From assembly GCA_030386875.1 (NCBI GenBank), contig CM059567.1:78919130-78983129 (forward strand): DNA of 64,000 bases, in the 5' to 3' direction. Positions 819-58,100 of this stretch are shown in pieces. Below the pieces are notes generated by a model. The model did no database searches and was not told the origin of the DNA. It worked only from the letters and a program-made list of their open reading frames with translations. The position numbers and the translations under genes were made by a program. Positions within the stretch are counted from its first letter, which is position 1. The number at the start of each line of letters is the position of its first letter. This stretch comes from Morinoia aosen (lineage: Eukaryota; Arthropoda; Malacostraca; Amphipoda; Talitridae).

Positions 819-2310
819 CTGAGAAGGTCGAGTGCAATGAGAGATTGTGAACCGGCGTATCCACCACTCGCCATAATGTTTTTTTATTGAATGACGTTGT
901 AACCTGACCCGCCAAGAATTAGGGAAGCAACAACTCGAATAGAACAGACCGAACCAAGGTGTGAATCCAATAGGTTAATACAACCAGGCAACAAAAGCGA
1001 TCTCACAGATTAGATTAGTCGTTAGTTTTAGCCTCCCTACCCAGCAACAATTGCGATCCAAAGAGAGGAAGGAGGAAGGTACCATTTAGTATGGAGTTAA
1101 GGAAACGCGGAATCTACGCAGAAAGGCATAGAAACAGTTAGTTGTGAAAGAAGATCATGAAACAAGACAAAAGTTGAAGAAGACAGTAGTAGGAGCTGAA
1201 AAACAGGACAGCAGTGAACCGAAAAAAGGTGGTCCTTAACATAACAAAAACATTTTATTTCAACAAAAAGAAGGCCTACCTAACTCTCAGCTCAGGCCCT
1301 CACATTGTCCCCCTGGGAGCGCTAGTTCCCATAGATACAATAATTGTATCCCCCTGAGGGGAAGCGATCTCACAACAAACGAATGCAACATACCTCAATC
1401 AATTCTAAAACACAAGTCTCAAATCATGGGTCACTGAGAATCATCGATAAAGGGAACGGTTGACATCTTCATGTAAAGCAAACAAGACCGACATCGACAT
1501 TGGCATATTACTCCCAAAGAGGAGCTAAGGAATCTTACATTTTCCAGACGACGTTGTTAAATCGCTGATCGAGGCACGCCGAATGACTATCTACTAGAAA
1601 TTTGGAAACGAATGGGTTGGAGACTGGAGAGTCATTTGCTATCATATCATGCTTACTTCCTACTAAAGCCATTTTATACATTGTAGTTCATGGACATGCC
1701 AATCACTACCAAAAGGTCGAACATAATAAATGTACTAGATTTGATCGGTATCAAAAGTAGCTGTATTTCATTACCGTCTTGAGGATGCATGAGAATTAAC
1801 TGAAATTGTCAGTGTGAGACAAAACTCCAAGGGACAGGGGGGAACTAGAGAGCTCAAACTAGAACATTCTTCTAAAAATACTTTATATGTAGTGGTATAA
1901 TTACCTTCCTTCGCCGGGCTAAGATGAACTGCAGACTGGTTGAGAGCGGTGAGGGCTTGATCATCATTCAGAAGTTGTGTTGACTTTTTGTGAGAAGTTG
2001 GCGCTTGAGCACTTCCTTGGGGAAGGTGAGCACCGCTAGGTGACTCCTGTTCAGTGCTCTCACTTTTCAAAACATAATTCACCATACTACTAGAATTTGT
2101 GAGAGAATGACTCTTGTTTAATGAACTGTACCACAACGCAGCGCTCGGGTGGTCAACAGAATCGAATTGTGTCTCGCGTTGTTCAGGAATGGGATACAGA
2201 AGGTCTGGTGCACCATGGGTCCGAGGCAAAAATAGAAAACATAGACCACACACGAAAACAGTCGCGAAAAGCGCTACATTATAACGCGACTTCATGACTA
2301 ATGAGACCAT
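731..2310 (-). CDS. second lipase-like paralogue, exons 1-2 only (gene runs off the window)
   Basis: Exon 1 is 1905-2310. ATG at 2310 (another in frame at 2295) begins a signal peptide (MKSRYNVALFATVFVCGLC, then FLFLP), followed by a Ser/Gln/Thr-rich spacer with several N-glycosylation sequons and a GAAG|GTAATT donor in phase 1 (context LSPAKEG). Exon 2 is 731-818, acceptor CTTCTCAG, donor ACGAA|GTAAGG in phase 2, encoding PSGSPLVDRPSAGDAGKFE and CVEKIFLWTK. Exon layout, both phases and the FLWTK ending match exons 1-2 of the gene at 18437-61688, so this is inferred to be a tandem paralogue whose lipase domain lies left of base 1. The catalytic residues cannot be seen. Confidence 0.72.
1008..1361 (-). 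mobile_element. SINE-like element copy A
   Basis: Full-length copy of the window's main repeat family, in intron 1 of paralogue 2. Read on the plus strand it begins with GATTAGATTAG and ends in CCCCTGAGGGG. It is flanked by a perfect 13-bp duplication AAGCGATCTCACA (995-1007 and 1362-1374). The duplication length, and copies truncated only at the CCCCTGAGGGG side, suggest retrotransposition with the GATTAG side as the 3' tail, so the sense strand is minus. No tRNA-type A or B box was found. Confidence 0.85.
1905..2310 (-). CDS. paralogue 2 exon 1
   Basis: A 406-nt first coding exon with a clear signal peptide and a hydrophilic, sequon-rich spacer (NKSHSLTNSSS, NQSAV). It ends in phase 1 at GAAG|GTAATT. 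The open frame continues past the donor to 1771 but loses coding character there. Confidence 0.72.
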
Positions 2311-7250: not shown

Positions 7251-7607
7251 GAAAGACAATTATTTTCCGGAGCAAACATAGGCAACAATTATGATTGAAG
7301 TAATAATCGCGTCACCTCAATCATAATAATCATCTTTGAGAAATTAAGTGAAGCCTAAGTTCACGGGACAGCAACTGAGCTCAAAATTGTTTGTTATCTC
7401 GGTCACCACAGCTTGCTGCACAAGAAAAAATACACGTAGGCTCTTTGATGAGACGGAAACGTAAAATGAAAATCTATACAGTATACTGCACTCATAAAAC
7501 CTTGATAGTCTTGTTTGTTAGCATGTTTGGATGATTGTTTGTCACCGTCAACGTAGTTCCAATAATAACTTGTGGTGAAACTGAGCATCCTACTCTCAGT
7601 AGGAACG

Positions 7608-18436: not shown

Positions 18437-19157
18437 TCACCGTATCTCCATTTCTCGCCAGAGGTCGATAGATCCTTCTAGAGAAGCGGCATTGTTGAAA
18501 AGTTTGGATGCACCAAGAGGAGCAGCCGCATCACTGGAAGACACACTCTCAGCACACAGAAAGTCGAGGTTTGTCCCCCGTGGTGCTTCATTTTTTCGCA
18601 CAGAAGGTCCAACTTCACCTACCCGATTGCGATGCAGGTTATCGAAGTCTCTCCTAAGATTGTCCTGATGTCTGACGAGTTCTTCCACACTTCTGCTGTT
18701 GTCTCTCTGATTATTACCGGTATTGTCAGATCGTACAGACCTTCTTGTATTCATTTCAGAAGCAGAGGCATAGGTGTCTATGCTATCTGGAATGGACATC
18801 GGCGTTTGTGGACGATCTGGTAGATCTTCATAAAAGCGGCTCATGGGACTTCTGCAGTCAACCCGCAACACTTCAGGCTGAACCACTCTGTCGTTATCAT
18901 TTGCGCCATAGTCGTCTCCATGGAAGCGGTTGTACATATTTTTGCCGAGTAAAGAAGCATGAACATTTTTGTAGGCGTACTTGAAGGATAGAACTATATA
19001 TGGAATAGAAATAGCACCCAGGAGAGCCAGGAATATTTTGGCCGCCCCACAGCTCGTCTGGTAAAGCTTCACTCTGAAAGGAGTAGGGCAGCGCCAATCT
19101 TCAAGAGCGTACGGGTCTTCCTTGCTCGTGGTGAGGAAGTAGTCTCCCTTAATGGCG
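18437..19157 (-). CDS. lipase-like gene alternative last exon 9B (long membrane tail)
   Basis: Acceptor CACGTGCAG then C, the same phase as exon 9A. It encodes AIKGDYFLTTSKEDPYALED, a homologue of the start of 9A. A different membrane helix follows (AKIFLALLGAISIPYIVLSF) with a short basic YAYKN flank, then a 190-residue hydrophilic tail rich in Asp, Arg, Ser and Asn with no recognised domain (for example RFYEDLPDRPQTP, RSVEELVRHQDNLRRDFDNL). That last segment may be a short coiled coil. 239 residues plus stop. It could instead be the surviving last exon of a lost tandem copy, but the open 720-nt frame, the intact acceptor and the phase favour use by this gene. Confidence 0.8.
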
Positions 19158-22100
19158 CTGCACGTGAACAAAACGAGCGTCCGTTACTAATAAAAGTTTT
19201 TTAAATGCCAATACCGAAAATTAAATGTATCCATACTTCACTCATTCCGAGAAATATTTTATTGTGGCATAAACAATGCATTGGATACATCAATCGCATA
19301 GAGAGTATGATGAAACTAGATAATATAACTTTTCAATACTTTGAAAAGTGGAAAGTTTCATGGAAAACGCCAGATTTAATTCGTGGTCTCAGTTGTTAAT
19401 TAAAGCCTCCTTAATCGCAACAAAGACGATCTAAAGAGAGGGAGGGTCAAGGCACCATTCAGGATGGCGTTAAGAGTACGCAGAATCTATGCACAAGGTG
19501 TGCTCCCGCACAAGATCTCCTGCACATAGAAACAGTAAGTTAAAAGGATGACAATGAAAGTTGAAGAATAAAGTCAGGAGTGCTGGAAAACAGGACACTA
19601 ATGAACCGAAAAAAGATTTCCCTTAACATTACAAAAAACATTTTTAACAAAACTGAGCTCGGGATCTCACCGAGAGTGTTAATTCTTATAGATACAATAG
19701 TTGCATCCCCCTGAGGGGAGGAATAACAGAATCAGATTATGAAATGAGAAACTAAACGTATAAATTAGAACAATCATGCTGACGGGCTAAAATATTCGTA
19801 GCCTTTAACATTTCAATTTAATCTTCAATTTCTTATACGTGATCTATACTGGAACAAGGAGTTGTGATTCTTCAATGAAATGAACGTTCAAATATTTCTT
19901 ACGCATGTCATAGTACCACCAGAAAATTGAGTATTTAAATTTATTCTCATGTATTTTAGTCATTTTTGTCAAATACAGCCGACTCACCAGAGTGAGAATT
20001 TTATGGGGTTTTAAAAATTGCGGGTTAAAACTAGACCATGGGTCGGGGCCGTAGCATCCTGTTAACATTTGGACTCCTTAATGAACACAAGCCGCATCCT
20101 GTGAAGTAGCGAGATCTTAGGAAGAACACAATTCAAATAAAACAATAATAGGTAAATTTAGAGAGAACGCAAACTTTTCAAATTGTACGAAGTTTTTTGT
20201 CCAGTCGTACTTTCCTCAAACAAAAACTTAAATTTAGATATTATGCAAGCAAGAGTACAATAGGCAACAAAAGCCTTCGTGCAGAAAACTCTAAGAAACG
20301 GATAGACATTTAAGCATTAGCATAAATATTAAGCAAATAAATGATCAGCAAACAAAAGAAACTGAAAAAGCACACGTGCCTGAAATTATTAACATAAGTG
20401 AGCGCAACATTAATACCTGAAATATTGAAACTTCTCGCAATGATTAAGAACTAGTAGCCAAGCGCAACGAAATAATGTATTTTATAAAGCATTAACATGT
20501 TCACCATTTTCAACATGAAACGAAGCATTACGCCATTGATATTTGAAGTGCTTTCACGTTTGGCGCACACGTTTCACTAATCTCTCCTTCAACCATTTCG
20601 CAGTTGTGTGATGCGAAGTGCGACACGGTGCTCACGGACAAATCTTCAGATTAAAAAAATTGAATCACTTACTTCAATGAACGCTATTCGGTGGCGGAAT
20701 AAACTCATTCAAGTTCGTCCAGTTTACACCCTTTGGATTATCCAATTCTAGCATGGTTAGAACGTGGGGCAAGTTTCATTTTTAAGGTTCAGTGTTCGGA
20801 ATAACCTGCAGCTCGTCTCCAAATCAATGAATTTGAGATCCAGAGGGTACTTCACTTTTCCAAGAGCGTATTAAAATGCCAACATTTTTTTGCGATTTGG
20901 CAGATCTAACTAAAACAAAAGTGTTCACACAGAAAGGAAAAAGGCACCATTTAGAATCACATAAAGGAAACGGGAATCTACGTACAAAGTGTGTCCCCAC
21001 ACCCTGCACATGGAAACAGCAGGATTGAAATGAGTTTCTGTAACAAGATAAAAGTTGTAGAAATAGGTCAAAGCGCTGGTAAAAAGACAGCAGTGAACCA
21101 AAAAAGAGATGGTCAGTAACAGAGAAGAGGTGCATTCAACGTGGTATGGCCGTTAACAGAACAAAAAAAATAAAATCTATTTCATAAAAAGGCCAACCAA
21201 ATCTTCAACTCGTGGCCATCTACTCCCACAATACCAGGTATAATGATGATACTCACCTAAAATGCAACACCTAACGTTTACACACACACATAGGTTAAAA
21301 TATTTTAGCAGTATTTCTATTCAAAAGGGCATAAAAGAAATAAGTTGGCATAATTTTGTCGCTGTAGACCCCATTGAGACGCAGTCTTGAGTATTAAATA
21401 GGACTAATGAATTTCCCGATGAATTTCTCCTTAAATGCTCTCCACGAAGCCGATGAAGCGATAATAGAAGTTTGAACCAATTTTGGAATCATCCAGGATC
21501 ATCACAGAACATGCTTGAATCACAGTACGCAACAGATACACGATCAATTAATTCCATGGTGCTTAAAATCTTCAGACACATGCCGATAACGAAATTGCAA
21601 ATCAACATATTATGCAACAAACAAATAAACCCTCATAAACTTCTAACAAAATCTGAAAGCACATGTATTGCTTCTTGAATTTTTTTGGTGGGCGCAACAT
21701 ATATTTCTCAAAAAAGTTACGGATGTTTTTGCTATAGATCAAACACCTCACGTCTTACAGGAACTTTACCAAAATGTGAACTCATGTTACACCATCGAAA
21801 TCAGCTAAGATGAGCAATAATCAGCAAAGCAACAATTTTTAAGAACACCATTTGATGGAAAAAAGCACTTTGCAGGAGATTCTTGGCAACCGTGTATTTT
21901 TCTTGAGCGCAATGAAAGAAGAGAGCGAGCCACCAATGTTAGGCCGCACAATATTGAGCGAGCCCTTGGGCAGAAGAAAGGGAAGAATTAGGCAGGTCCT
22001 GAAAATGCTATATATTCTCAGTCCGACACATGCCAAGGGCTCACACTTGCTATGGCTAGCGTACTTCGCACCGCTCATTTGGTACAAAAGCTAAATATTT

Positions 22101-25100
22101 CTGATGAGTCAGGGCGTCAAACGCGCCAGCACCGGAGACCAGGGAGACGCTCCGCATCAGAGCCTCCAAGCTCGCAAGAACGATGACGACCCAGGAGACG
22201 CGCCTCACAAATTAAGCGACAATGCCTTTTCACTCTCGATCAGTTGTTTTTATCCCCATACTCTTCAAAATGAATCAAATACATTCTAAGGGCACAGACC
22301 TCCTTAACCTACTTCTCATCAAAATACAGAAAATCACCACATAAAAGCACGTAATTTAAAATGGTGTGTTTTTGTAAGTCGTTCATGTATCACAATTTTG
22401 TTCGATAAAACATAGGACTACATAATGAGGATTAAACAGCACGGATTTAAAATTTGCAGACAACTAGAATAGTTGGCTAAGCTTCCTTGACTTCCCTGCT
22501 GAACAAAGTAGTGGGAGAGACCTTCTCAAACGACTTAGAGCTAACTTCTTGAAGTCGTTCACAACGTTTTGCCAAGGTAACTCGCAATAAAACATTCTTA
22601 TTACAGACCAAACAACTACTTTAAATCAGCGTAGTATACGTATATTAAAAACCAGCTCCTAAATCTACAACATTTACCTAAACACTTAACTTTGCTAATT
22701 TTAACCAAATTTCGAGACCAATATACAAAAATCGAGACCGTCACGGAAGTTCAGATACGTGTATAATTGCCTCCGGTGTAGGATTCGTTACGTTCCATCA
22801 CTGCAGAATGCTACAAATTTAGCAAAGCAAGTACTGACTAAATGCAGCAACATTACTGACATGCCATCCACAAATTCGTATTTATCGGAGAAACGTTGAA
22901 AACTTCTGCTCTTCTATTACTTCGTTTAATTTTGCTTCAAGTTTCACATACTTTTCTCTTATGACATCATTTCTTTATAGCACAATAAAACTTGCCACCT
23001 GACAGCAGATGTTAGCATAGTTGTCGAGCTCAACGATAGATATGCACGCTCTGCAGGACACGATAGTGAATAATTTCATCATAGTACGTAGAGTTGTCGA
23101 TAAAATTACGGAGAGCAATATTTGCTATTCGGAAATGGAATATTGGTAAATTGAATGACAGGTTTCGTCCGTGATGACTCTTACTACAGTGCACGAGATT
23201 CAGTCGACATTTTCAAACTGCCGCAATTTTTGAAGCAAGCATTTTCAGATCACCACAATTGGCCGTAAAAAATGTTCCTAAACTCAAATGAATTCGCTTG
23301 TGTATAGGCCACATTTCAGCATGTGACGTCGGCAATGGCTTGTTTCTTTGCATTGAGCAGCAGCGCCAGTGCCTAGTTTAATTTCTGCTTTATAATGAAC
23401 TGAGTAGCTGATACCTGCAGCAGAAGTCAAGGAAAGTGAATCTGAGTATTAAACGTCTACAGGTCTGTTGATGATGTCAGCAAACCCTCTAGCGACGCCG
23501 CCAAGGATGGAAGACCGGGGAGGTTGTTCCTGACCAGCAACAATGCGGCGTGTATGATCATCTCCATCTCCTAGGAGAGGGTCGGTGGCATCGTCGGATT
23601 TCTTCTTAAAAATTCCCGTGACTTTGTAAAGCACGAAGCAAATGATCACGAGTACAACGGCGACAACAGAGATGACGATGGCTGCTATGATGGCATCCGT
23701 GATAATCTTCTCGTGCTCCCCACTCGGGCAGTTGGCGTCCAGCAGGGCGAACGGCTCATTCGCGCTCGTGTTCAGGAAATAGTCTCCTAAGGAGCTGGAC
23801 AACAAAAGAACAGCGTCTCGGTAGGAGAAACAGACAAAAGTGAGCTGTGTTCCGTTCAGCAATTTTTACCCTTTATAGATACAAGGTTCGTATGATCAAG
23901 TGAAGTAGGATTACGAGTGAAACATCGCCTTTATCCTTCTCGTATCAGCATATCAAGGCCGAATGTCATCAGTTTGCTGCGAGTTGACAAGCTCGACGAA
24001 AAATAATGGAAGGATACCTCCTTCCATGTATGCTTTGATACAAGAGAATCTACGGCAAGGAAGAATAAACGCTTACAAAAACTCGTGTTAAAGTGCTTTT
24101 CTATTTTGAATACAACACGTAAAAAGAGGGAAAAGATGGGATGCGAAGTATGAAAGTAGCATTAGTACTCGTGAATGGAACTGAAAGTACAGAGAATTAA
24201 GGAAATAAAACGCAGAATGATCAACTAAATCAATGGTGCACTCTTGCCAGCAATTGAGCGATAATCGAACAGTAAAGTAGAAAATGAACCAAAGAGGTAA
24301 GAAAATTGATGACGTAAATTAGAACACTTTGCAGCAAGCAATTATTACAATTTAAAAGCCAGGCTCGCCTTTGGCCCTAAAATATTCTAAATATTAGCGT
24401 AAAAATGTTGAGACAAATTTTGTTATTGCACAAAAAATGGCATGGCTATTGTGACAGGAACAACAATCGTCTCGTAACTATGGGAACAGAAAAAATTCGA
24501 GGTATGACACACGGCGGTGTCTGTGAAGAATCGCGAAACGATGAAGCTATGCGAGAGAACTCTGCTCGCTCACCTCATTCAAGAACAGCAATCAAGGAAA
24601 CGCGGTGGGAGGTTACTTTTGCGCGTCAGATACGGTTCATAGGGTATTAGTGCAAAATCGGTGAAAACTGTATTGGGAAGTTCAGCCAAGGTTTAATAGA
24701 GAGTGAGAGAATTTTAACTTCTTTTACCTGAACGGAAAATTGTTAATTCAGAAATTGATTTAGGTGAGTGAATATCTAAGAAACAAGAAGTGTGTGACAA
24801 TCTAGCGAGCATATGAGTGAACAATTGAGGATCGAGGCTGAGAAGAAAGTTCTCAACTCGTGAAATGAATGTAACCATTCTAGATTCTCTTTTTTTATAT
24901 ATTTAATCACAGTTCTATGCTGTACATTTTGCCTGCGGTGACAATATGAGCTGTTTTTCTGAGTTACGGAATGAAGTACCTGAAGAAAATTCAATCGGCT
25001 CATCGAAGTAAAGCTAAACTAAAATGCTCGCAGGATACTGGTGAAGAACGAACAAAGATTGAGGCCTCAACAAATAACTACCAACAACGCAAAACTAGAA

Positions 25101-28100
25101 ACAAGCCCACAAAGAAATATTTAACGCTACGCAAGAAAATTATGGGATAAACTTAGTTTACCAGCTAATTAGAGAAAAGCAGGCACCAGGAAGTGAAAAC
25201 AATGGACTGAACCTTTTCTACAACAGCACAACAACAATAATATCTAGCAAAAAGGCCAGCGAATAACTTATGTATCGAAGAACTACACTCAAAACTTGTG
25301 AATAGAATACAGAACATAATAGTTAATTATGAGAAAAAATAAAATACAACCCGAACAACAGATAGAACAAAACTCTTAAAATGCATAGAAATTCAATAAT
25401 CTTCTCCTCTAAAAAGTATTACAAATGGGAAAAGAAGAGCATCCCTTAATGAAACGAGACTTATGGAGTGCATAAAATACATACAGTGACGCCAGGAAGT
25501 AACTCCGCACTGCCTTATTTTTTATTATATTTTAAATTATGGCAAATATAACTAATCATTTGAAGCAAACTTTACACCATAAAATATTACGACTTTCAAT
25601 CTATAGATTTGCATTCTCAAACTTATTCTTCGGCCACTCAGTAACTGTGTAGGCGTCATTTTATATGAAATAGACAAAGTCTGCAGGACAGAAAGAAACT
25701 CCGCATGTTAGGATTTCGATGTAAATATGCTACAATGTCCGCTTTTAAGCTGCGATCGGGCATTTGTAATTGTAATCAGTGCTAGTGAAGACCATTAAGT
25801 GCTAAATTTTTTATTAAATTTTAGTCATGCCTCGTCTTTCCGTTGATAAGCGCAAGGGGATAATTAAACTACACAACAATGGAATATCCAACCGTGAAAT
25901 TGGTCTTCGATTGAATTGTGACGAAAAAACCGTCCTGCTAACATTGCAAAAACATCAAAAGACTAGCAGCGTTCATGACATCCCAAAATATGGACGTACA
26001 AGGGTGACATCGGCCAGAGAAGATCATGCCATCAAGATCCGGAGTCTTCGCAACAGATTTGAAAGTGCCCCAGAGCTGCGTAAAGAGTGTGGTCTTATTG
26101 GAACGCGCTCTGTGTCAACTGTCAAGAATCGGCTGAAAGAGTTTAAGCTAAGGGGATGCATTGCCAGAAGTAAACCAATGATATCCGCAAAGAACAGAAA
26201 GCGTCGCTTGAATTTCACTAAGAGCCATGAAGAAACAGACGCTTTTTTTTGGAGCAAAGTTCTGTTTAGTGATGCAAATTGAATTTGAATGCCTATTGAA
26301 TTTGCATTCATCACTAAACAGAACTTTGCTCCAGAAAAAAACGTCTGTTTCTTCATGGCTCTTAGTGAAATTCAAGCGACGCTTTCTGTTCTTTGCGGAT
26401 ATCATTGGTTTGCTTCTGGCAATGCATCCCCTTAGCTTAAACTCTTTCAGCCGATTCTTGACAGTTGACACAGAGCGCGTTCCAATAAGACCACACTCTT
26501 TACGCAGCTCTGGGGCACTTTCAAATCTGTTGCGAAGACTCCGGATCTTGATGGCATGATCTTCTCTGGCCGATGTCACCCTTGGACGTCCACATTTTGG
26601 GATGTCATGAACGCTGCCAGTCTTTTGATGCTTTTGCAATGTTAGCCGGACGGTTTTTTCGTCACAATTCAATCGACGACCAATTTCACAGTCGGATATT
26701 CCATTGTTGTGTAGTCTAATTATCTCCTTGCGGTTATCAACGGAAAGACGAAGCATGACTAAAATTTATTAAAGATTTTAGCACTTTATGGTCTTCACTA
26801 GCACTGATAACAATTACAAATGCCCGATCACAGCTTAAAAGCGGACATTGTAGAATATTTACATCGAAATCCTAACATGCGGAGTTTCTTTTTGTCCTGC
26901 AGACTTTGTCCATTTCAGATAAAATGGCGCCTACACAGTTACTGGGTGGCAGAATAATAAATTTGAGAATGCAAATCTATAGATTAAAACGCGTAGAATT
27001 TTATGGTGTAAAGTTTGCTTCAAATGACTAGTTATATTTGCTATAATTCAAAATATAATAAAAAATAAGGCAATGCGGAGTTTCTTTCTGGCGCCACTGT
27101 ATATCCGCAGTCCGAAGTAAGAAGCACACAACACCGGTCTTCCTAGTGAGCGTAAAAGATAGTCCAAAAAGATAAACCCACTAAACTGATAACACAACCA
27201 ACACAGCTTCTTGCAACCCGTGATACCAATTTGGAAGACGAGGTGACCACAGAGTAGCACAAATTCCTGCCCACAGGGTGCACTGACGAAAACACGCACT
27301 ATCAGCAGCCCTGCTCTTAGCGAGAACCTCGGACCCTACACCTCCCACACACCACGACAGCAGCTGCGCACAACAGGAATCTCCAGCGCACATAGCAAGA
27401 GGAGCGGGACTAGTGAGTTCAAGTAACTGAGCAGCATGACTACCAAAACATAGTCAAACGCAGTCAATCAATGTTATTTATTCATGTTTGATCAATCAGT
27501 GATTGATCAAACATGATCAATCTAAGTCAATAAGAAGCAAACTTCCATCACGGTGGAATACATAAGAACAAAAAGCATCGCACAACTTGCAACATTTTTA
27601 CCTCAACATAAAACATGAAGTAGGGTGCAACATTATATGCAATATTAACAAATGGCTCATCAAATTTGGAAGTAGTTTATATATCTTCGCCTATCCCGAG
27701 GCTGTATTCAAATCTGACAGGCCAGTTTGACAACTTTATTTACTTGCTATCATAAATCAAAATACAACACAGGAATTGATTCAAATTCAAGAAAAATGTT
27801 CAGCATTAATCATGCATTTAAATAAGTATTTCTTTCTGTTTCCAAGTTGTAATATAATTCGTAAGAATTGAGGGATATTTCTAATCCATACCCAGCGACA
27901 TCCAATGGTACATACAATGTCAACATTTAGTTGTACTAACAACGTCAATAGTCTCAAACAGCAGCAGCATTACAAGGCGTTGCCTATGGCACAAATGACT
28001 CAAGCATTTGGTTTGAAGAATACTGTTCGATCCAATTGGCTCTCCGAGCATTATTCCAAATGATTTTTAGCCTTTACATAATCTAAGTACTGATCTAGCG

Positions 28101-31100
28101 AGGAAATCCAGCCGAGAATAAACTGAAAGCTGTTTTTGTCATCAAGAAAAAATATCCCATTCCGGTCACGAAACTGATGGTTAAGTGCAGAAACGGGAGG
28201 TTAAGTGGCACATGGAACTACAGTAAGTCGCACACACATCTAGAAAATACCGAACATTTCTAACCACAAAACTGAGAAAATTGAACGCCTACTATCAAGA
28301 AAGGACATTCTCAAACAACAGAAATGAAAAGCATTCTCAAACAGCAGTGAAAACAACGGAAACACAAGGAAGTGCACGCGAGTAATACAAGAGCAATACA
28401 ACTTTCCAACAACTGCTGAGGCCAGAATAAAGAGTATGTACATGAGAAAGCTAAGTGCTGAGTGTCCTCCGCCATCACACCCGTAACTTGAACTCAACAC
28501 AAAAATTCTACGTTACAGAATTTATGCGCAAAAAATAAAAACTATACCAGTTCAATGAAGAGAAAACACTATAGCTCTACGAGCGAGGCAGAAGCATAGC
28601 AGGTAACGATTTTGAGTAAATTTCAAGTGCATATTTTTGCTAAACATTCCTTTTCAATTTAAAATGAACCCTATTGCAGCCATTTTTCATTGAGGATTTA
28701 CCTATTTTGCAACAAAGTTCAGGCTCATTTCATTGCGAGCTGTAACCCGACACTTTTGCAAAAGTGAGCAGTCAAGTAAATAATTTGGTAACATAGTACA
28801 TGTAACGCGACGCGATTAGATGGCAACTAATAGAAAAAAATGAATTCTAGTAATTGTAAAATTATATTTCTAATGTCAAGAGAATGATTCTCAATTACTT
28901 TTTACCCAATCTACAAAAGAGGTTCAAGTAAGAAAATGGATTTGATGAATGCTCAAGCTGCACGCCTCGCAGAATGGGGTAAAAGAAAGGGAAACGACGA
29001 TGAAATTCAACTGTGGTTATCTACCGACTAATGGGAAAAAAGCATCAAGTTAAAACGTCATATAAGGATGAAAGTGCATTTTTCAAATTTATTTAGTCGC
29101 AGAAGCTCATGAGGGTTGGTACGAGGACGCAAATATGGAAGTAATCTTGAGCAAATGAGTCAAATTTACAGCTATGACCGTTGATTTTTTGTTTAACATC
29201 AAGCCCTGAAGTGACTAGCTCAATGTAATAATTTCCGTGTCTGCACTCGTCAATTTTTTAAGCTAGTCGATTAAATTCATTAACGATCTTTAACATCTAT
29301 TCAAATTCGATATTTGAGGTTTGTCCATTTCACAAGTGCAGCCAACACTTTTCTTGAGTCAAGTTATTTCAACAAATTAAATGAATAAGAAAATGGTCTC
29401 GGTCGTGTGTAGGTCAGAGGACTCGTCAGCTGATGGCATTCACCAGTAACATGAAAAGGCGGCAACACTCGCTCACGACGGCGCTCGCAACTGGCCCACA
29501 CGTTTACATGGGGGAGAGAACGGCCATTTTCGAAGTAGGCGAGCATATTTTATAATCGTTTTCTTTCAGGATATTGAATGTGGTCACAAATAGTAAAGGC
29601 TTAATTCAAATCATTTTGGATTACAAAAACGCAATTGCAACGAGCGTACATCGATCAAAGTTGATCAAAAAAGCAAGACTTTCATACCTCGGAAACAGGT
29701 TAAGCATGTTGTCCGAGACTAGCATGAGTTGCCCACAAAAAATCATCAGGACAAAGCGAATTATACCACAGAAAAAATAGACGCATGTTGATAGAGGAAC
29801 CATAAAAAATTCTTCGATGATGAACTTGTACGATGTTAGCGCTCAACACGAGCATTATCTTTCCTCAAAAATATAATGAAATGAATAGATGGTTGAATGA
29901 TTACATGAAAAAATACAAAAAAACATTAATGAATAACGAAGAGTTGAAAAAGAAACGAAATGGAATGGAATGAAAAGCATTTTCAGCACCACAGAAAAAA
30001 TCGAGACCGTGTGTCATACTGCAAATCGAATCAGCTAACTTGATTTTCAATTCCACTCAATAATGCAAGCACGTACGTAAGCCAAAATAACGAATCCTAC
30101 GAGGTTAGCTAATCCCTAAGATTAATGGATATAACCGCAAAATTGCACACATAAATTTCAGTTCCAAAGACACTCAAATAAGAACGCCAGACAAGTCTGA
30201 AGCAGACAAAGGCTCTGACACACCGCTACACATTCACAAGAACTATGCTAGAGTTACGCGACTCATTACACCAAGGCACACCCCGTAAGAAACCATCACA
30301 CCCTGCAGGTGAGGAGCTACACAACAGCACGCGCAGTACTCACCTAGAGCTGGCGAAGATGCCCATGTACTGCGCGACGGAGCCGCACGACACGTTGCCG
30401 TGGAGGTAGGCCTGGTAGTTTTTGGCGGGCCGCGCCAGGAACCTCGTGGTTGAGATGGAGTAGGCGAAACTCTCGATGAAGTAGTCCGTCACGATCGTGT
30501 GGTCACAACGCAGCCCTGTAATAAGGACATGAACTCACCCAAGCCCAGTAAAAGATATATGAACTTCCCTATTCGCTCTGGGTATTTTGAACTTTCGCTG
30601 ATTTCGCTTTCGTAGATTTTGAACTTTCAGCTCAATCTAGCTTCTACGTTTTCTACTCTCTGAACTCAATCGTGCATTTACTCGCACCTCTACATGAACA
30701 CCCGGTTTAAATTTAATGATCAGATGGTAGTAATCGAGTAAGATTATGAGCTTGACAACGAACTAGACGATAATTTTTCAGAGAATTTTGGATGAATAAC
30801 TTTTGAGACAAACGTGCATAACAATTCGGAGTTGTCATTCGTAAGGTAGAAACAGTATAATTTACAGCCATTGTTTTGGAGGCCGGGTTACCCATTTTAG
30901 TTTAATGTAAACTAGAGATTTCGGTTCCCGGTTTCGTTCTTCATTTTATCATGATGGATTATAAATTAGTTTTAGCTTCCTTTACCACAACAAAGATGTT
31001 CAAACAGAGGAAGGATGAAAGCACCATACAGTATGGAGTTAAGAAAACGTGGAATCTATGCACAAAGGGTGTTCCCGCAAGAGATCAGGTGTAAGATAGG

Positions 31101-34100
31101 AAACAGTAAGATAGGAAGGAAGGTTATGAAACAAGCTAGATGTTGAAGAAGAAAGTCAGAGGTGCTGAAAAACAGGACAGCAGTGAACCGAAAAAATGGT
31201 CCGTAACATAACTTCAAACCATTTTAAACCATAAACATAAACGTAACAGAACTATTTAAATAAAAAGAAGGCCTACCTAACCTTTAACTCGGGACATCAC
31301 TTTTTCCCCCAGGGAGCGCTAATTCCCACAGATACAATAGTTGTATCCCTCTGAAGGGTCTTCATTCTATCAACATTCTATTACGTTATCGTAATCAACA
31401 TCAAACGCATATATGTTTTCAACTATTCCCTAATTGTTTAAATTTTAATCATGTCTTCAGTTTTAATCCGGGATTTTTAAGGTGAGAATGTGTTACATGC
31501 AGGTCTGTCAACGAGCGATCATTCCTAAAAAGTATAGCACTTATCATGAACTATGTTGTGCATCATGAGCTATGTTGAGTATCATGAACTAAGTTGAGTA
31601 TCATGAACTATGAGTAAAAAGTAGAGGGCAGGTTCAGGGCATTATGTTCAACCTATAATTACACACTGCAACCCCATCCATGAGACCCAGCGCTCGGTGT
31701 CGCCTAAACGACACTTGGGACGCATTCGATTTGTTATGGAGAACGGCCGCGTGCCTAAATGGTGAAATGGCTTATTTACAGCGCATCCTTCACGCATTTC
31801 GGTGCGTGCTAAGCCAAAAAAGAAAGATATTACTTATAAAAAAGTGAACGAAACTTTGACAGAACGTCTTACTGCAATAGAATAAAACATACTGCAAATA
31901 AATTCGAAGAAAATATGCATAGGTCACATTCAAATAATATCAATATCTATGTTGTGAAAAATATAATAAAATGAAATGAAATAGCTGAATTTGATATAGT
32001 AAAGCTCAACTAACATCCTGGGATTTGAATAAGGCGCTCAACAATCATAAAACAAATATGAAGAATAACTCTAAGACCAGCTGAACTCAGATCAACGATC
32101 CCAGTAAGGTCTAGAACAAACACATTCAAGATACAAGGTCAAATAATTTTTTATTCGAAATTAGTATAGAATTGATGAATTTCTCCTTTGATGGTTAGAT
32201 CAGATGAGATTTTAGTTTACGTCTCCTTAACAGCTTAAAAAAAGGGTTCCGCACATGAGAGGAAGGCACCATTTAATATGGAGAGAAGAGAACGCGGAAT
32301 CAATGAAAAATGGGCATAGAAAGTTAGCTTAGAAAGAACATTATGAAACGTGGTAAAAGATGAAGAAGAAAGTTTTAGGTGCTGAAAAACAGGACAGCAG
32401 TAAAACCGGAAAAAAAGGATCCTCAACACAGAAAAAAAATTAAACACAGAGTGTCTACTGTCTACTGATATTTCACTTCCAAATTTTATTACTTTTTTTA
32501 CTACTTTTACTAACTTAGACAGGAAAAAAATTCTACTTATTCATTACACAATGAATGTTGTCTAAATGTATAGATGTAAGAAATCGGCCTATAGGTAATG
32601 AGTAATTTGAGTCACTAATACAAGCAAAAACGAAGATTCAAATTAATACCAAGTGTGTTAATACTTAAAATACGAAATAAAATACTTAATACTAAATGCA
32701 ACAACCAACGCACAATTACAAAAAAAAATTCCTCAAGTTTTTTACTGTTCCTCTTCATAAACGGACTCAAACAAATGCTCGGCAAACACCTTGTCTTAGC
32801 ATCTTTCAACTATGGAAGCACCACTTCATCATTTGCAAAAAATCAACAGACTGGAAACTAGTAGACACTGGGGAAATGCCAGATCTCTTAAGGGAATATT
32901 TTCCATAAACTGCGGCCAATTTCTGATTCTGGGAGAAAGAAATTTTTAAACATCTTTGTACTCTATATCCACATGTACATTACTCCAATTTTCAGTGAAT
33001 TATCCCACTTCACAATTTTTTACTACCTTGACAAGTAAAGTAGACCTTGAAGCAAATTTTACTACTTTTTATTACTACACAAATTTTACCACTTTCCTCC
33101 CTAGTAGACACCCTGTTAATTCAAGAAAAAAAGGCATACTTAACTCTCAGCGTAGGCCCTTATTCCCTTTCTGGGAGAGCTAATTCTCATAAATACAATA
33201 GTTATATCCTCCTGAGGATTTTCTCCTTTGAAACACCATAGTTTGGTGATAACTGAAATAAGCTAACTTATCTCGTAAATATTGAACACTCCAAATGCTA
33301 GCTTTTTGTAGTTCATTCACGGTCGTGATTTTTCATGTATCAAGTTTCGTCTAGGAACACCAGGTTTCAACACAAACTCTAAATTCAAATTACAGGAAAC
33401 CAGGGACAAATTTGCAGTGAGATAAAACAGAAGAACATTGTGCATTTCTCTCAGTGAAACTCACCTGTGGTCTTCTTGTGCTTGCAGGCAGGCTGGAAAT
33501 CGCCGCCGTTCGGCCAGAAGTCCGTGTGGCCGATGGATTGGTAGATACCGAAACAGTCCTGGAAGCGGATGCATTAGAAGAATACGTTGATTGCCAAAAG
33601 CGCAGAAGTGATTTTCACAAAAAAAATCTTCATTAACAGCTGCAAAAATTATTCTATTATTAGCTGAAAAAATTTATTCATTTACACATGCAAAATCTTA
33701 CTTACAGGTCACGATCAGTTAAGACAAGGTGTATTCACACCTTAAATTCTTATGAGTCAGTATACACCCGAGTTGAGCAACATTAAGGAGAACAACCCAG
33801 GCCCTGTCGGTCAGATGAGCATTTTTTTATGTTTTTGTTGGAAAAGGACCCTTAGGTGGTGGACTATTTGGTCCGGCCCTAAAATTTTATGGCGCTACGG
33901 ACACTAGATGACACTTTACACCCCCCAGGGGGAGGAGAGGGTGGTGGTTGTAAAGGGATTAAAAATCCAAAATTTCCGACCCCATATGAAAAGAAAAAAC
34001 GGGAAGTTTACTACCGTAACTTTGTTTACAATGCTTATAAAACTGTCTTTGGTTTTGTTCTAGCATAAAAACTCAATGAGTTCTATTCTTTTGAAATATC

Positions 34101-37100
34101 AATAAAAATGAACTAAAAACCCAATATGTCCAATTTTTTCAAAAAACTAAGGCCTGAACCGAAAAAATGCATAGAATAAATTGTGTTTCTTTTTAAAAAT
34201 TTCATATAATAGTCAAATTTCATAAGAATCGGACAACAAATAAAAAAGTTCAAAATTTTTATAATTTTTTTTGTAAATTACAATTCACAGTGTGAATTTG
34301 AAGTCATGCATGGAGATTATCGAAATAAAAATGAAAAGAGCATTCAATTACATAAATTTTCCTTATATTACACTTCAACAAAAAAATTATTTTTCCAAAA
34401 ACCTCTCACTTTCAACATTCAAAAGAATAGAAGTCGGTGAGTTTTCATGCTATAAAAAAAACAACAGTTTTAGAATCCTTGGAATATTTCTAACAAAAGT
34501 ACGGTAGCAAACTTCCAAATTGTACAGAAATTTTTTTTCATCTAGCTCAAAACCCAAAATTAGTGTATATTTGAGGTAGTGAGAAAACATTGCATATAAA
34601 AAAAATGAAAAGTTTCAAATGTAAAAATTTTCTACCGTACTTGTGTTAGAAATTCTTCAAGGATTCTAAAACTGTCTTTGGTTTTGTTCTAGCATAAAAA
34701 CTCAATGACTAAATCGAAAAAGTTACAGAAGTAAAATATGTTTTTTTTTCAACAAATACATAAACTAGCCAAATTTCAAACGAATCGGATCAAAATTTAA
34801 AAATCGCTGGGTAGTTCCCCTTAAAAGCGAACTTCTCCCATTATAAGAGGGACTTGTAAGTCTTCAGTATTAATGAACATCACTTGCTCCTAATAGAACA
34901 TTTAGCATTTCACGTTTACTCAAGAGTTAAATTGCTCCTAGAATATTCAACAATAAGTAACTTTATTCCTCAATAATCATCACAACCATGAGCGACGTTT
35001 ATAATTTTAAAACTCTCATCACAAAGGTCGTTTTGGAAGACGAAATTTACTCAAACCGTTCCTACAAATTTTACTCCGTGAACTTGTAAGTTACATCTTC
35101 TTGACCAAAATATCTGCTGAACCCTCCCAAAGCAAATATTCCCAACACCATGCGAAAAATAAATGTGTAGTTACAACTTTTTATGAGGGATGTACTCAAG
35201 ACTTTCGTTCCTTTTTCGTAAGAAGTACAAAGGGTTCAGATTTTTCAAGTTACATCAGATTACGTCGCTATTATTACATAAGGAATGGAAGACGTGCTAA
35301 AGGGAATACAGCATTAGGTTGAAGAGAGGGCACTCACACTCCAGACGTTCCAGTTGTTGCAGCTGTTGGAGTGAATGATATCCACGTAGTATGCATCGGC
35401 CTTATCGAGCCGCTCGGCCGCAGCGGTGCCTAGGAAGCCTCTATTTGCTGGGTCCAAACCTGGACCAAGTTTAGTTTATTGGCCAATTGATCTTTCACTG
35501 TATCCATTTTAATTATGATCTGATTTCGAAAGACGTCTGTTCAATTGTTACAAAAGATGAGTGAAGAAACACTAAAATAAATAGAACTTGATTTTTAATA
35601 AAGTACGAACCATTTGAAACAAACCAGTGAAATTGACCAGTCTAACAAAAAAGCGTTGAAGGCCTTCGTAGACAAAGCTTTACCGCGCACACTAGCACTT
35701 CCAATCTCCTGCAACCGAACAACTGTAAGGCACAAGGTACTGAAATTCACTTCGATGCTCATTGGAATTTAAACCAGACCAGATGATCATAATGCTCTAT
35801 TTGATTTTAAATACATTTTTATTTATATGCACAATATCTAATGTGGTAATCACAAGCTATAGGTACACTCTGAATTCTCTAAAAAAGCCTCTTTTCAACA
35901 TCTATCACAAGGACCCAACTCGCTGAATTAGAGCGCTTCCTTGCTTGGTCAATATAAGAATATGATTGCGTGGTCAACATAAAAATTTTATCAAGAGAAC
36001 GAGAACGTAACAATGGCGAGTTGCGAGGGGGATGCCAGTCATGAACGTCTTCACCAGCGCACATTTCTTCAATTGTAAAGTATAATTACACAGTCTCTGC
36101 TAACCTGTGATGCGACCAAAGGGTAGCTTGGCCTTGCCAGCAAAGCCGGCTATGTGGGCTCCCAGGTTGAGGCCGATGACGTGAACGTCCTTGTAGTCGA
36201 GCCGCTTGCCGATGTGGAGGGCTTCCACCAGACGCGCCACCGACTGTCCCAGGGGTTGGATGTACTCTGCCAAGAACTCTCAAATTACACCAGTACGCAA
36301 AATCTGATTCATGGTAGGATTAGTGTGAAGTTGCTTGATTTTGCAGTTAAAACTCAGTCAGAAAATTGGAACCAAGGTTGAAATCATCAAGCAAACTTGC
36401 ATTACCTGCTCAGCAGATCATGGAAAAATCTCATAAGTTAACACTCATTATATAATTATCACAATAATTTGACAACACTGGGGAACGTTAGCATGAACTG
36501 TCACAAGTAAAAAAGCATTACCTCAATACTGATATACTCCATTTATTCTGGATGTCGAACTCAAAAAAACAAGTCGGCACCATGCCCTCAGGAGCAAGAT
36601 TATACTAGTTCAATATGTATGCATATCTTATGCTGAAATGGCGTATTTACTGCAAACATTTATTTTATCACCATATCCCTGCGCATGATAAACTGAAATA
36701 CAATATCACTGAAAAGAACAGCATTTGAACATAGGTACCTTCACATCTGATAAAACAGTCATTTCAAATGAAGTCTCGTTGCAGCGATACAGCGGGCTGC
36801 TGAGTTAGAATACCAGTAAGGGAAACAACTTTTTTTTACTTTTCAAAAAAAAAAAAAATACCTTTTCACTTCTGTTCAGCGTATTGTTGGGAACGCTTCT
36901 TCACGATACGAGCTATATCAATCGAAAAAGCACTAAAAAATTTATAGAAGCGTCTATTTGGGCAGAAAGGATAGCAGGTGTTATCCGGTAGGGGGTAAAT
37001 TTAAAGTACACGATGAAACACTTGATCCAAACCAATATTATATTTTATGGAATTTGTTTCTCGATTTCATATAAATGCTCAGCAGCGCATGCACAAAATC

Positions 37101-52100: not shown

Positions 52101-55100
52101 GAAGGGATCGTGTGGCCAGCGACTATCATCTACTCGAAAAGAATCGTCATCGCAGAATATATTCTCGTCAATAAGCACAGCATGTACGTAATTCTTCGAA
52201 CATCGTCTACAATCGGCCGAGACGTCGCCAGCAGGCAGGCATCGCTTGAAAGCTACGTCCACCTTCATACCTTCATCCTCCTAGCATCGGCGAGTGCCAC
52301 ACCAAGCAAGCCATACTGCTAAACACCTCCATTTCTCTTTATATTTTCAACTCTTCCTTAGCCACTTAGGATCTTATTCATTCTATATAGATAACTTGTT
52401 TATCAATTGTAAGTCTAATCCAATCTAGTTATCTGGCGACACTTGTTATTTCCGATAATTAACGTTAAGCATTGTGATGCAGAACACGTTTTTTAGTAGC
52501 CATAACAACAGAGACGTGGGAAGCCCGCTCCTTGAAGGAGTCGGCGACATTATACATACCCAGCCGTGACTAGTGAAGGCGTACCTTCGCCTCGCTGCCC
52601 TTGCGGGCAATTGAGGGCTATATATTGACGTCACGTAATGACTTATTAATCGCCAATCTGGAATCTAAATGCAGCTAAGAATCCTACATGTTATCTCACG
52701 TTATCATCCTAATCCGGTTATTTCACGTGTAGGTTTAGTTGACGTTCGCCTTATGCGTACGAAGTATTAACCTGCATGGAAGATGTGTGCGCTAGATTCA
52801 CTTAATGGGTTAGATAATCTATGTTACGCTAACTGATTCAGTAACGAGGCCTCACCTCGATCGATGTGAGCTTAATGTAACTTCATTAGACGAATTCCTG
52901 TCCATCGATTATGTCAACTATTCTGAATCAAAAGACGTCATCATTCATCAGTAAATGAATTGTTTGGAAACCTCCTGATTATTTACCTTTCAATCATCTG
53001 AAAATAACTGAATAATGATTATCGGAAAATGAGGAAATTACGATAGAAATGTACCCTTGGTAATGAGGATGTATGACCCATAAATACGATTAATGTTGTG
53101 CAACAAAAAGATTTAAAAGCGGACATCCGTAACAAGCAGAGTAGGATTTCAGCCCATTTCAATGAAAAGAAACACGGATATAACAATGTTGTAGCATCGG
53201 TGAGATCAAAAATATAGATCACGACACACATGTACCGAAGAAAGTGTAAGGTACGAGCACAAAAAAGGTTGGGAGCATAATACGTTCTTTATTGTCCACT
53301 CGATTCTAATCCTGAAATTGCGGACCTAAGTACTCCTTAGTTTTAGCCATAACTTACTTAACGTCTCGTTGTAAGCCTTATAAGAGAAGTTGTAGCCAGC
53401 CTGCGATTGCCATTGTACTGTGATCACGTTACTTCCAGCATCCTTCTCTAGCATCTCTGGGCAAGGGAGAAAACAGACGCGCGTCACAAAAATTATCTAC
53501 ATTACAATTCCACTTGTGTTTTGTACGTCCGTACGATGCAAGACAATTGTTGTTTGAACTAAGAGGTTCAACTGTCGTTAAGTAAATAAAAAAGGTCCGA
53601 GTCAAGTCAAGATAGTTCAGGTTGAAATAATTTAGGTTGCTATAGCTTAGATTAGATTAGGTAAGATTAACAAGATGGAAACCCAAGTAATTTTTCACAG
53701 GTCGACTAGTAGGTATATATAACAATGTAAATTTAAATTTGAATGGAATGGCTACCTAGTAGTTAAGATACGACACTAGCTAGTCAGCTAAAAAATCAAT
53801 GACAAATATTTTTTTCCTGTGCCATTACCCTATCGATAGATAGCTGATTTTCATTTGGTATCACCTCAACAACATAAGTGATAAAACCGAGAACTAAAGG
53901 ATCAGTTATGTTCAAAGCGGAAACGCCAATTTGACACGTCGATCATCGTTCCCAACATAGCAAAGAGAAAATCATGTATACATACAGACAAATCTCTGGG
54001 TAAAAGCTCATTACCATTTGAATCTCTTGAACGATATAGAGGGTGCCTCCCCGTAGGAATGATTCCTCAAACCTACAAGTTCAACTCTGTGATAGAAGCT
54101 CTCGCTTTCCCCTCATCCCTTGAGAAATGCTCAAGTTCTAAGGAAACACTGAAAGGCATTTACCGTTGAACGCTTTTCCTGAACGTGGGTAGGCAGGGTA
54201 GTGACAGACCCTAAAATAACCCAAAATCAAAATGTATGAAGATCAGATAAGAGTATGCGTTAGTTTTATCCTCCCTAAGCAAAACAATGTTTCAAGGGAG
54301 AAAGGATGAAGGCACCATTTAGTATATAGAATTGAGAGAGAGCAGAATTTATGCACAGGGTGTGTTCCTACACAAGATCCCCTGCGCAAAGAAACAGTAA
54401 GCTGAGGAGAAAGGTTCTGAAACAAGGTAAAAATTGGAAAAAATCAGAGACACTAAAAAAAACAGGAGTTACAGGACGGCAGTGAACAAAAATAACATGA
54501 TCCATAAGAAAATAAAAACCTATTCTACTTCAACACAAAAAAGCCTACCTAAATCTCAGCATGGCATCTCATATTTTCTCCCTGGGAGTGCTAATTCCCA
54601 TAGATACAATAGCTGTTTCCCCCTGAGGGGCATTGTGAATGAAGGAGAAGTTTCATTAAAGCATTACAAGTGGGAACTTTTTTTTTTTGAGGACCGTCAA
54701 CACGCTCACTTGTAATTAAAAATCCGGTTACATAAACAAACTCACACATCAAGCTTCGTAAGAATAGGAAATTCCAACTCACTTTCTTTCAGCTTCAAGA
54801 TCCAAGGTTTTGTCGCCCAAGATTGAAATCCGTGTATCATTATGAAGGTTTTAGCACCAGCCTGGAAGTTTGATTTGGAGATTGTGTTGTTATCAGCACT
54901 GATGATCTCGTATTCCTCGCCGTTTTCATAACCTCTGTAAGATAAATGTAAGAATTGAAATCAGCGGAAATATTTTAATAAAATAAGAGATATGGTACAG
55001 TTCTTGTGTCATTTTCTAGATGGCTCACACCTTTGAAAAATTAATTACAAGCGACCACGCGAGAAATTTACGAATAACTTTTACCAGTAGAAACGTAACC

Positions 55101-58100
55101 TTTTTTAAAAACAAAAACAGGGTACGGCGAAGAAATCTACGATTTTCCTTACTGCGACGAAGAAATCAGTGTGCGTGAGCAATGGTCACATAATGACACG
55201 CGCTGGTTTTAAGTCCGCTAATGCTTAACGCATATAAATAAAAGCATTGATTCCAATTGAAGCTAGTGTTTATTTTCGCTAGGATTACAATCACTGATAT
55301 CATCTTGACATTCGTCGTTATTTACAGACAATACCAAAAATATTCATTAGAAATGGTATTAATGTTGCCATCTTTATCATTAGAATTTCTGTCATCATAA
55401 CAACCCTGAACATTAGAAGACCGCTCGGCAGGCAGGGCACACCCCGCACACAACACCAGTGCGTGAGGGACGCGGCAATAGAAAGCTCAGACCAAAGAGA
55501 AGATCCATTACTTATGATTTTTTCTATCATTGTTATTACATTAGTTCAAGATCATACTCAAATGCGAAATTATGAGAACGAAAGGGAGGGACCATTTAGC
55601 ATGGATTCAAAAAAACGAGGAATCATTAGATGAGTTCTCTCAACTACATTAAACTTATTAACTATCATACGTATGTCCTCTGAGGAGAACGAAGTACTAC
55701 CATTAGACACAAGCAGTGAGAGCTTCACATCCCACATAAAACGTCCTAACATGGCACCTGCAATCAACGAGGCATGGCCAGCGTAACAACCTATAACTTA
55801 GAATATTAGCGTTTTTCTGAGATGCAGGTTATATTGATCTGATTCTCTAACGACTTGTTATTTTTAAGTGGATGAAAAATCACAGATATTTTGCTGAAGA
55901 TGTTATGAGTCATCTGATAACGTTCTACATACACGACGGTAATAAAAAAATTATGTTCTATGGAGAGAGTGGAGGACGCTGTAACTGACTAACTGAACGA
56001 TGACATTCCTAGGCCTGCACCAGCACCAAATCCCACCATCCAACAACTCCACAGCAAATTCCACCACCACCTAAGAAAAGGAATTTTTCAGTAATAATTT
56101 TCTTATGTTATCATTTGATTTAATTTCTCGGAAAAACAATACGTAAAACTTTAATAGCAACTCAACTAAATAATGATCAAATGTTTCTATTGAAAATGGG
56201 ACTTCAATGTACAATCATCAAACGAGGTTACTCGCACAAGATGTTTGATTATACGCGATACGAAACACAGCGCGCTGCCCTCATCTGCTCTGCTGAGCTC
56301 GGCACTCAGAGCACAACCGTGATTGGGAAGGTCGTTTTCCATCCAGCCTGGCCTTCGAACATGGCGAGGAACTTTCTTGATAGAGTCCCTTTATTTTCAC
56401 CAAATATCAAAATCAAAGTACGTGTTATCAAACTTTCAGTTCCCATTCCAAGCGCCGATCAGGACCACGAGTAAGATAAGTGTTATATCCTGTGTTTACA
56501 TGAGTCCTAATCCCACCATTAATTTAGGCGTAAAATTATTTATGATGCGTAGACTTATCTTTGATGTAGTATACATATCTTTGATGCGCTACATAACACT
56601 GAAATACTTTCCTTTTAGGAAATTAATCCTCAATGTAACTCAGGTCGTCTTACTTCAGTCTTAAGGATGGACTTGCAAGTTGTCGCTGACGTCGTTGATG
56701 TTCATACTAAAACTCACGTTACCTATTACCTTGAAACTGTGAAGCCTCGAATATTGATAATATAAATCATATTTGTTGAATTTGATATGAACAACGCATT
56801 ATTTAGCTATTTTATGAATGACACATATAGATTATCAAAGAGAAAAGAAAAAGGTTCCACTGACGAAAATAAAAGTATAATGAATGATGATGAGAATACG
56901 AACAGAGCGCACCGCGCGCATACTTCATTGAAATATGACGAGAAAACCTTATGTTCATCCCGCACATTTAGAAAGAGAATAACACGTAATGATGGCACTG
57001 CTTTAGGGTCATAGAAACATCCAATCAGATAGATTATTAGATTAGATTATTAGTTAGTTTAAGCCTCCCTATCCGCAACAAAGGCAATCCAAAGAGAGGA
57101 ATGTGAAGGCAAGAGTAGGTGTGAAGTCCGAAGGTTAGTGATAACGCTGGTTACTGTGCGACGTTTACTGGTAGGGATGTTGTACAGGGGAGGAACACGG
57201 TCCAAATGCGACTCTAGAAGTCTCCACACGCTCTTTTATACTGTCAAATTGCTGACTAAGCGTGCGCATTGCGGCAGAACCGCACCCAGGCGTTGCATTA
57301 GCATACGTACGAACACATGTACAGACAAAGTGCGCACACAGGAAGGAAGAAGGCACCATATAGTATGGAGTTGAGGGAACGCGGAATCCATGCAGAAAGG
57401 GCATAGAAACAGTAAGATAAGAAAGAAGTTCATGAAACAAGATCAAAGTTGAAGAAGAAAATAGTAGGTGCTAAAAAAACAGGACAGCAGTGAACCGAAA
57501 AAAATGGTTCTTAACGTATCAAAAGCATATTATTTCAACAAAAAGAAGGCCTACCTAACTCTCAGCTCGGGTCTTCACATTGTCCCCCTGGGAGCGCTAA
57601 TTCCCATAGATACAATAGTTGTATCCCCCTGAGGGGATCCAATTAGATAGGCATCACGACAAAATTTTGGTTCATAAAATGCTTAAAGGTGTGAAATCTT
57701 TGGAAAACATGCCGAAAGTGCGATTAGCGTCAACTATTTCTGACCATTAAGGCCAGAAAACCCTATGGGTAAGATTATACAAAAATCTTGAGAGTGAACA
57801 GGTCAAAACTTCATTCTTAGAAAATGAAAAATATAAAGACGACAATAATTCACCATGAAAATATAAAACATAGACACAGGTGATATTACACCTTAGAACA
57901 TTACCCGTGACACGAGAAGTTACGTTTGAAATCATATTACTATCAGAAATGATGACTTTTTGCTATAACTAGTGTAAAGTTCGAATATCTCACTTGGTAT
58001 ACAGGAACGCTGAATCGATGTCGATCATAAGAGGGGTGTGAGATCCGTTGTTGTTACCTGGGGAACGAGAACACAAAAATGTAAACGTAAATACATAATT

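Follow-up and report, generated by a model that had tools for sequence, protein, structure and literature searches.

In a tandem array of three genes, U, W and D, gene W takes the middle position; it lies in a 64-kb stretch of contig C12, which we call the window; the genome searched comprises 1.99 Gb in 29 contigs. We rebuilt W as a complete gene of nine exons on the minus strand, running from 61688 to 18437 (Table 1). All introns are GT-AG and the exons join without internal stops. The product has 517 amino acids with exon 9A as its last exon and 642 with exon 9B, each read to its own stop. A signal-peptide-like N-terminus is followed by a low-complexity stalk and a lipase domain. This domain matches PF00151 with 194.9 bits (E = 2.9e-57, profile positions 36–336), above the curated cut-off of 27, and PF00151 is the sole Pfam family matched at E 1 by the 9B form. 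Pieces of the W exons also match solved chains of pancreatic lipase, lipoprotein lipase and hornet PLA1 (15 chains at E 0.001). The ectodomain is not of the carboxylesterase (cholinesterase) type. Scans of the window with Rfam (gathering threshold) and for tRNAs gave no matches.

Table 1. Features of gene W and its tandem neighbours, in window positions unless contig positions are given
Feature	Position	Strand	Description
W exon 1	61346..61688	-	Start codon ATG and signal-peptide-like N-terminus; stalk rich in Ser, Ala and Pro, with a 39-bp repeat in about 4 copies
W exon 2	57994..58057	-	...DSAFLYTK, lipase fold begins
W exon 3	54783..54934	-	AGAKTFIMIHGF; homologous exons in U and D
W exon 4	53358..53456	-	SNVITVQW; U, D and C24 have homologous exons (weak match)
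W exon 5	36105..36266	-	Elbow GLNLG at the nucleophile; its Asn is encoded by AAC, starting at 36168
W exon 6	35338..35459	-	Catalytic-type Asp (GLDP)
W exon 7	33465..33558	-	Region preceding and within lid; lid short by eye
W exon 8	30344..30515	-	Catalytic-type His (CDH); donor CTCTAG/gtgagt, phase 2
Exon 9A	23449..23794	-	Lipase-fold end, membrane helix, tail of about 60 residues (KKKSDDATDPLLG...PVDV), stop
Exon 9B	18437..19157	-	Lipase-fold end, membrane helix, tail of about 180 residues with YNRF and YEDL, stop
Candidate poly(A) signal, 9A form	ATTAAA 23377..23382; another at 22930	-	Consensus match only
Candidate poly(A) signal, 9B form	AATAAA 17512..17517; ATTAAA 17801	-	Consensus match only
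Candidate exon 1 of gene D	1905..2310	-	Signal peptide; marks start of next gene; putative join to D exon 3
Gene U	Contig, about 79.01 down to 78.99 Mb		Upstream of W; incomplete model; tail short, may continue in further exons
Gene D	Contig, about 78.92 to 78.90 Mb		Downstream of W; incomplete model

Repeats and mobile elements occur in and around W. In exon 1, 4.1 copies of the 39-bp tandem repeat (61377–61533) encode 13 residues each (DAPSPDAEKSS-like), and the length of this stalk repeat may differ between individuals. Intron 8 carries two 794-nt arms (25481–27102), 95% complementary and 34 nt apart. By eye, this head-to-head inverted pair looks like a Tc1/mariner-type element, and in the pre-mRNA its arms could pair into a very large hairpin that separates exon 8 from exon 9A. 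Ten places (1321–62266) carry a repeat element with GATACAACTATTGTATCTATGGGAATTAGC, all on the minus strand, which is the orientation of W (10 matches at up to 3 mismatches, 0 expected). Introns of W, at about 37900–49400, contain long open frames; by eye, these resemble reverse transcriptase and zinc-knuckle proteins of retroelements. Genome-wide, 25-mer searches for TTAGG repeats gave 6970 forward and 8901 reverse matches, with 0 for the control, as would suit an arthropod genome.

The initial annotation described W as a lipase-like pseudoenzyme, and its catalytic residues bear this out. The nucleophile Ser is replaced by Asn in the elbow GLNLG, which aligns to GHSLG of solved pancreatic-type lipases, and the Asp (GLDP) and His (CDH) are kept. 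The triad is thus Asn-Asp-His in W and Ser-Asp-His, with elbow GHSLG, in U, D and a related gene on contig C24, here named after that contig. W shares the lipase fold, the Asp, the His, GLDP and GHTDFWPNGG with the insect-type pancreatic (neutral) lipases of PF00151, and it lacks the Ser-Asp-His triad of the active members. By this test, W would belong to PF00151 by descent and not as an active lipase. Neutral lipases with incomplete triads are reported from wasps in the available excerpts of two studies (PMC7240578, PMC9143690). W alone of the four genes has lost the Ser, and in a scan that also covered U and D it alone shows two last exons of this kind, a coincidence that carries little weight as it concerns one gene.

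Exon 8 could be joined in phase to either last exon, as had been proposed. It ends in a phase 2 donor (CTCTAG/gtgagt at 30344). The acceptors at 23794 (ttgttgtccag/CTCC) and 19157 (gttcacgtgcag/CGCC) both supply a C, which gives the same Ser codon, AGC. The homologous lipase-end motifs said to open the two exons, GDYFLNTSANEPFALLD and GDYFLTTSKEDPYALED, are present. As expected of alternative last exons, W has two phase-compatible terminal exons, each with a stop and a consensus match to a poly(A) signal, and the gene model supports a signal peptide and one helix per form. The poly(A) consensus has additional matches in the interval from 9A to 9B and past 17517.

After the shared motif, the two exons diverge in both helix and tail. 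This part of the initial description stands, with tail lengths of about 60 and 180 residues in place of the 65 and 190 claimed. The membrane helix reaches a hydrophobicity (KD19) of 3.47 in 9A and 2.07 in 9B. Lys and Arg number one in the 15 residues before the helix and four in the 15 after it in 9A, which agrees with the proposed type I topology; in 9B the counts are two and two, so that charge is neutral and does not fix the orientation. The weaker helix of 9B and its neutral flanks count against the two exons serving one type I protein, the explanation that we favour below.

The 9A tail has KKK beside the membrane and the sequence DDATDPLLG, resembling EDEEPILG of gene D. A search of the tails for the strict dileucine pattern [DE]xxxL[LI] found none, its single match in the 9A form being lumenal; the acidic PLL in 9A, like the PIL in gene D, bears no more than a resemblance to it. 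In the 9B tail, YNRF and YEDL fit the Tyr-x-x-hydrophobic sorting pattern, which is also found five times in the lumenal part. Tyr-x-x-hydrophobic and PLL-type motifs are short and common. Single-sequence folding of 9B gave a low-confidence prediction (mean pLDDT 41.6; below 50 for 186 of 239 residues), with a helix over the membrane part and two further helices in the tail; this agrees with a probably flexible 9B tail without proving it. Exon 9B has no match at E 1 among Pfam families and PDB chains, and the matches of the 9A tail and helix all fall under the curated cut-offs. We count these missing matches and the low-confidence fold against the explanation favoured below.

Exon 9B is a frame of 239 codons. 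We simulated 4000 sequences with each of two composition models, and 0 had a stop-free stretch of 240 codons, so we do not attribute the frame to chance. For splice sites, we used a score with generic weights; the 9B acceptor scores 3.24, and the constitutive acceptors span 0.32 to 6.48. We then scanned the minus strand from 30343 to 2310 for acceptors scoring at least 3.2 that open an in-phase reading frame of at least 60 codons. Only 4 of 48 acceptors passed: 9A, 9B, one inside 9B at 19073, and one at 21037 whose frame has weak hydrophobicity (1.32). On the plus strand, 2 of 40 passed, with hydrophobicities of 1.56 and 0.67. From exon 8 to the next gene, the acceptors of 9A and 9B are thus the only ones among the 48 whose in-phase frame is long and encodes a membrane helix, 19073 being internal to 9B. 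Downstream of W exon 8, a looser scan (score at least 2.0, at least 40 codons, hydrophobicity at least 1.6) retained 5 of 110 acceptors, which were 9A, 9B, 19073 and two short frames, and 0 of 107 in a control of the same span. The same settings gave 1 of 100 for D, its own exon 9, and 1 of 45 for U, where the frame resembles repeats and the true exon-9 acceptor (score 1.7) falls under the threshold. Among the three genes scanned, two last exons of this kind were seen in W only.

Two further properties of 9B count against its use as an alternative last exon. The in-frame acceptor at 19073 is stronger than that at 19157 (4.5 versus 3.2); a form starting there would drop the fold-end motif and keep the same membrane helix and tail. 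Third-position GC is 0.46 in 9B, below the 0.70 of exons 2–8, although the 9A tail (0.46) and exon 1 (0.39) are similar to it.

Exon 9B needs upstream exons, because it lacks a Met ahead of the membrane helix and because only 8 codons upstream of the acceptor are open in its frame. We searched the minus strand from W exon 8 to gene D by tblastn, with W exons 5–9, two generic motifs, and exons 3–4 of W, U and D as queries. Matches were at chance level only. The best (E 0.14, at 7453) was rejected for a context that is not lipase-like, and an exon-9-like match at 16480 (E 2.3) was dropped because its frame reaches a stop within a few residues and contains no helix. Between 9A and 9B, tblastn found no convincing lipase exons that could be remains of exons 3–8. 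Against the whole genome, 9B matches only itself and, weakly, 9A (E 0.36).

We also considered that 9B is used with a different 5' part and makes a separate membrane protein. That part could come from another gene, or 9B could have a promoter and a short signal-peptide exon to itself. A very short first exon could be missed in the 4.3 kb between the 9A stop and 9B, but this interval contains no signal-like ATG start that stays open for 25 codons, in a scan that recovers W's own start. The signal-peptide starts found between 9B and D exon 3, at 2310 and 2295 in one frame, lie downstream of 9B and fit gene D. In addition, 9B holds the last strand of the lipase fold, which is of little use without the rest. 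A separate 9B protein is highly improbable in our view. With no other convincing lipase exon found nearby and no signal-peptide start between the 9A stop and 9B, only the exons of W fit 9B; the separate set of lipase exons that the initial annotation had named as a refuting finding did not appear.

The pair had been suggested to be an exon duplication turned switch. Over 20 aligned residues of the lumenal motif, 9A and 9B share 12 residues and 40 of 60 nucleotides. The corresponding values are 11 and 43 for 9A and U, and 10 and 37 for 9B and U, which leaves a local duplication unproven. The split between 9A and 9B seems about as old as that between the neighbouring genes, a comparison that uses few residues. 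The origin could be either a very early duplication of exon 9 or the takeover by W of the last exon of a lost tandem copy. Under either origin, an unused exon would hardly keep 239 open codons. The two motifs have diverged about as much as the paralogues have, and over such an age an exon this long would seemingly have acquired stops if it were not used.

A rival explanation is that 9B is a relic: the last exon of a former tandem copy whose exons 1–8 were lost, with no useful splicing to W. With three tandem copies at the locus, the loss of a fourth is plausible, and 9B is no nearer to 9A than the neighbour U is. A relic would, on the other hand, have to account for the long open frame with its stop after a protein-like tail, for the preserved acceptor and phase, and for the absence of convincing exon 3–8 remains in the tblastn search. 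We consider this explanation unlikely.

The initial annotation held a switchable membrane form to be unusual, pancreatic-family lipases being normally secreted. The membrane form is not peculiar to this gene. We find the same exon-9 module in both tandem neighbours and in C24: a phase 2 start, the motif G..(F/Y)...TS...P(Y/F)(A/G) and then a membrane helix, which in C24 lies in a further exon. By direct reading, W-9A, W-9B, U and D agree in the phase and position of the intron that precedes exon 9, and C24 agrees with them if its weak exon-8 donor is used. With the module present in U, D and C24, the membrane anchor looks like a feature of the clade and not an invention of W. The hydrophobic stretch of gene D is long enough for two helices, and its tail may face out. 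Exon 2 of D and exons 1–2 of U were not found by a pattern search whose motif recovers the W control.

We examined four other lipases of the genome, on C4, C5, C14 and C15. Those on C4 and C5 reach PFCG, and we dropped them as lipases ending at that point: a donor-like GT lies exactly there (GTAGGT and GTAAGT), and they may go on in a further exon. The C-terminal ends of the C14 and C15 lipases were not found. In C24, the helix exon seemingly occurs in two adjacent copies (L037:5633–5788; 43 nt, 84% identical, 113 nt apart). By reading, the first copy would end the protein right after the hydrophobic residues and the second would give a cytoplasmic tail, so that the clade may hold, in C24, another gene with exchangeable anchors.

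We think it likely that W encodes a single type I membrane pseudolipase, for which 9A and 9B serve as alternative last exons that choose the cytoplasmic tail. That both forms are transcribed, as well as their topology and role in trafficking, we infer from the genomic sequence. W would be a member of a small clade of membrane-anchored pancreatic-lipase-type proteins and would have lost its nucleophile Ser. Exons 1–8 would provide the signal peptide, the stalk and most of the lipase fold, and exon 9 would complete the fold, cross the membrane and form the cytoplasmic tail. If 9A is spliced in, the transcript presumably ends soon after, at the ATTAAA at 23382 or 22930, and the protein would have a short tail with the acidic PLL motif. 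If 9A is skipped, 9B would be joined, the transcript would end near 17801 or 17517, and the protein would have a long tail, probably flexible, that contains two Tyr-x-x-hydrophobic motifs. The choice would be exclusive because either exon 9 closes the fold by itself and brings a stop. The lumenal domain would be nearly constant, differing in its last strand, and sorting or signalling inside the cell could vary. A sorting role for the tail motifs is a guess from their sequence, as is the suggestion of a binding partner for the dead domain, be it a lipid, a protein or the active lipase of a neighbour.

It could also be that both forms are spliced and that 9B is a minor, functionless by-product of leaky termination after 9A. 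Forms of one gene commonly vary in membrane organisation among mouse transcripts, according to the available part of one study (PMC1449889), but the long 9B frame and protein-like tail would be hard to retain by chance over the divergence seen. We regard this as very unlikely.

Neuroligin, gliotactin and neurotactin are single-pass membrane proteins with cytoplasmic tails. They resemble W in having alpha/beta-hydrolase ectodomains without a working triad, and act in cell adhesion (PMC5943944, available excerpt). They differ in their cholinesterase-type domain, and the excerpt does not describe a last-exon choice between two tails for them. By analogy, W may work like these cholinesterase-like adhesion molecules without being a member of their group. 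Acetylcholinesterase, with its T and H peptides, is an alpha/beta-hydrolase in which, as proposed for W, an alternative C-terminal piece sets attachment; it belongs to another hydrolase family, is active, and alternates between a GPI anchor and a partner-bound tetramer and not between two helices and tails (same excerpt). DPP6 and DPP10 are single-pass and hydrolase-like, as W is, and DPP10 is inactive (PMC4350108, available excerpt). DPP6 gains several cytoplasmic ends from alternative end exons, with four first exons (PMC3366920, available excerpt). Unlike W, DPP6 and DPP10 are of a different family and type II, and their variable cytoplasmic end is N-terminal. As a possible precedent for alternative tails, we rejected Drosophila Crumbs, its isoforms differing, in the source text available, in EGF-like repeats and having one common cytoplasmic tail.

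Within the neutral lipases, 22 of 180 are predicted at the plasma membrane in the available part of one study (PMC9143690). The word 'transmembrane' has 0 matches in the text of PMC7240578 and PMC9143690. The excerpts of these two papers mention neither a last-exon membrane helix with a cytoplasmic tail nor two such exons, both of which are predicted for W. In the available text of open-licence papers, we found no description of this combination of elements in the pancreatic-lipase family, or of a clade of membrane-anchored lipases. Each element of W taken alone has a precedent.

A broader reading is tentative, and we hold it to be doubtful as a whole. In it, a pancreatic-lipase fold has become a non-catalytic membrane receptor or scaffold whose splice-selected tails direct one ectodomain to different routes of sorting or signalling. 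Such a protein would be a counterpart of neuroligin, gliotactin and DPP6 that arose among clustered membrane lipases in which the triad is kept and which are possible partners.

W points to a clade of membrane-anchored lipases. The related neighbours also look membrane-anchored, and the unusual part of W is the choice of tail. If both forms are made, the pancreatic-lipase fold would join the hydrolase folds that have turned into membrane receptors, and W would offer a clean natural test of tail function, with one constant dead ectodomain and two tails.
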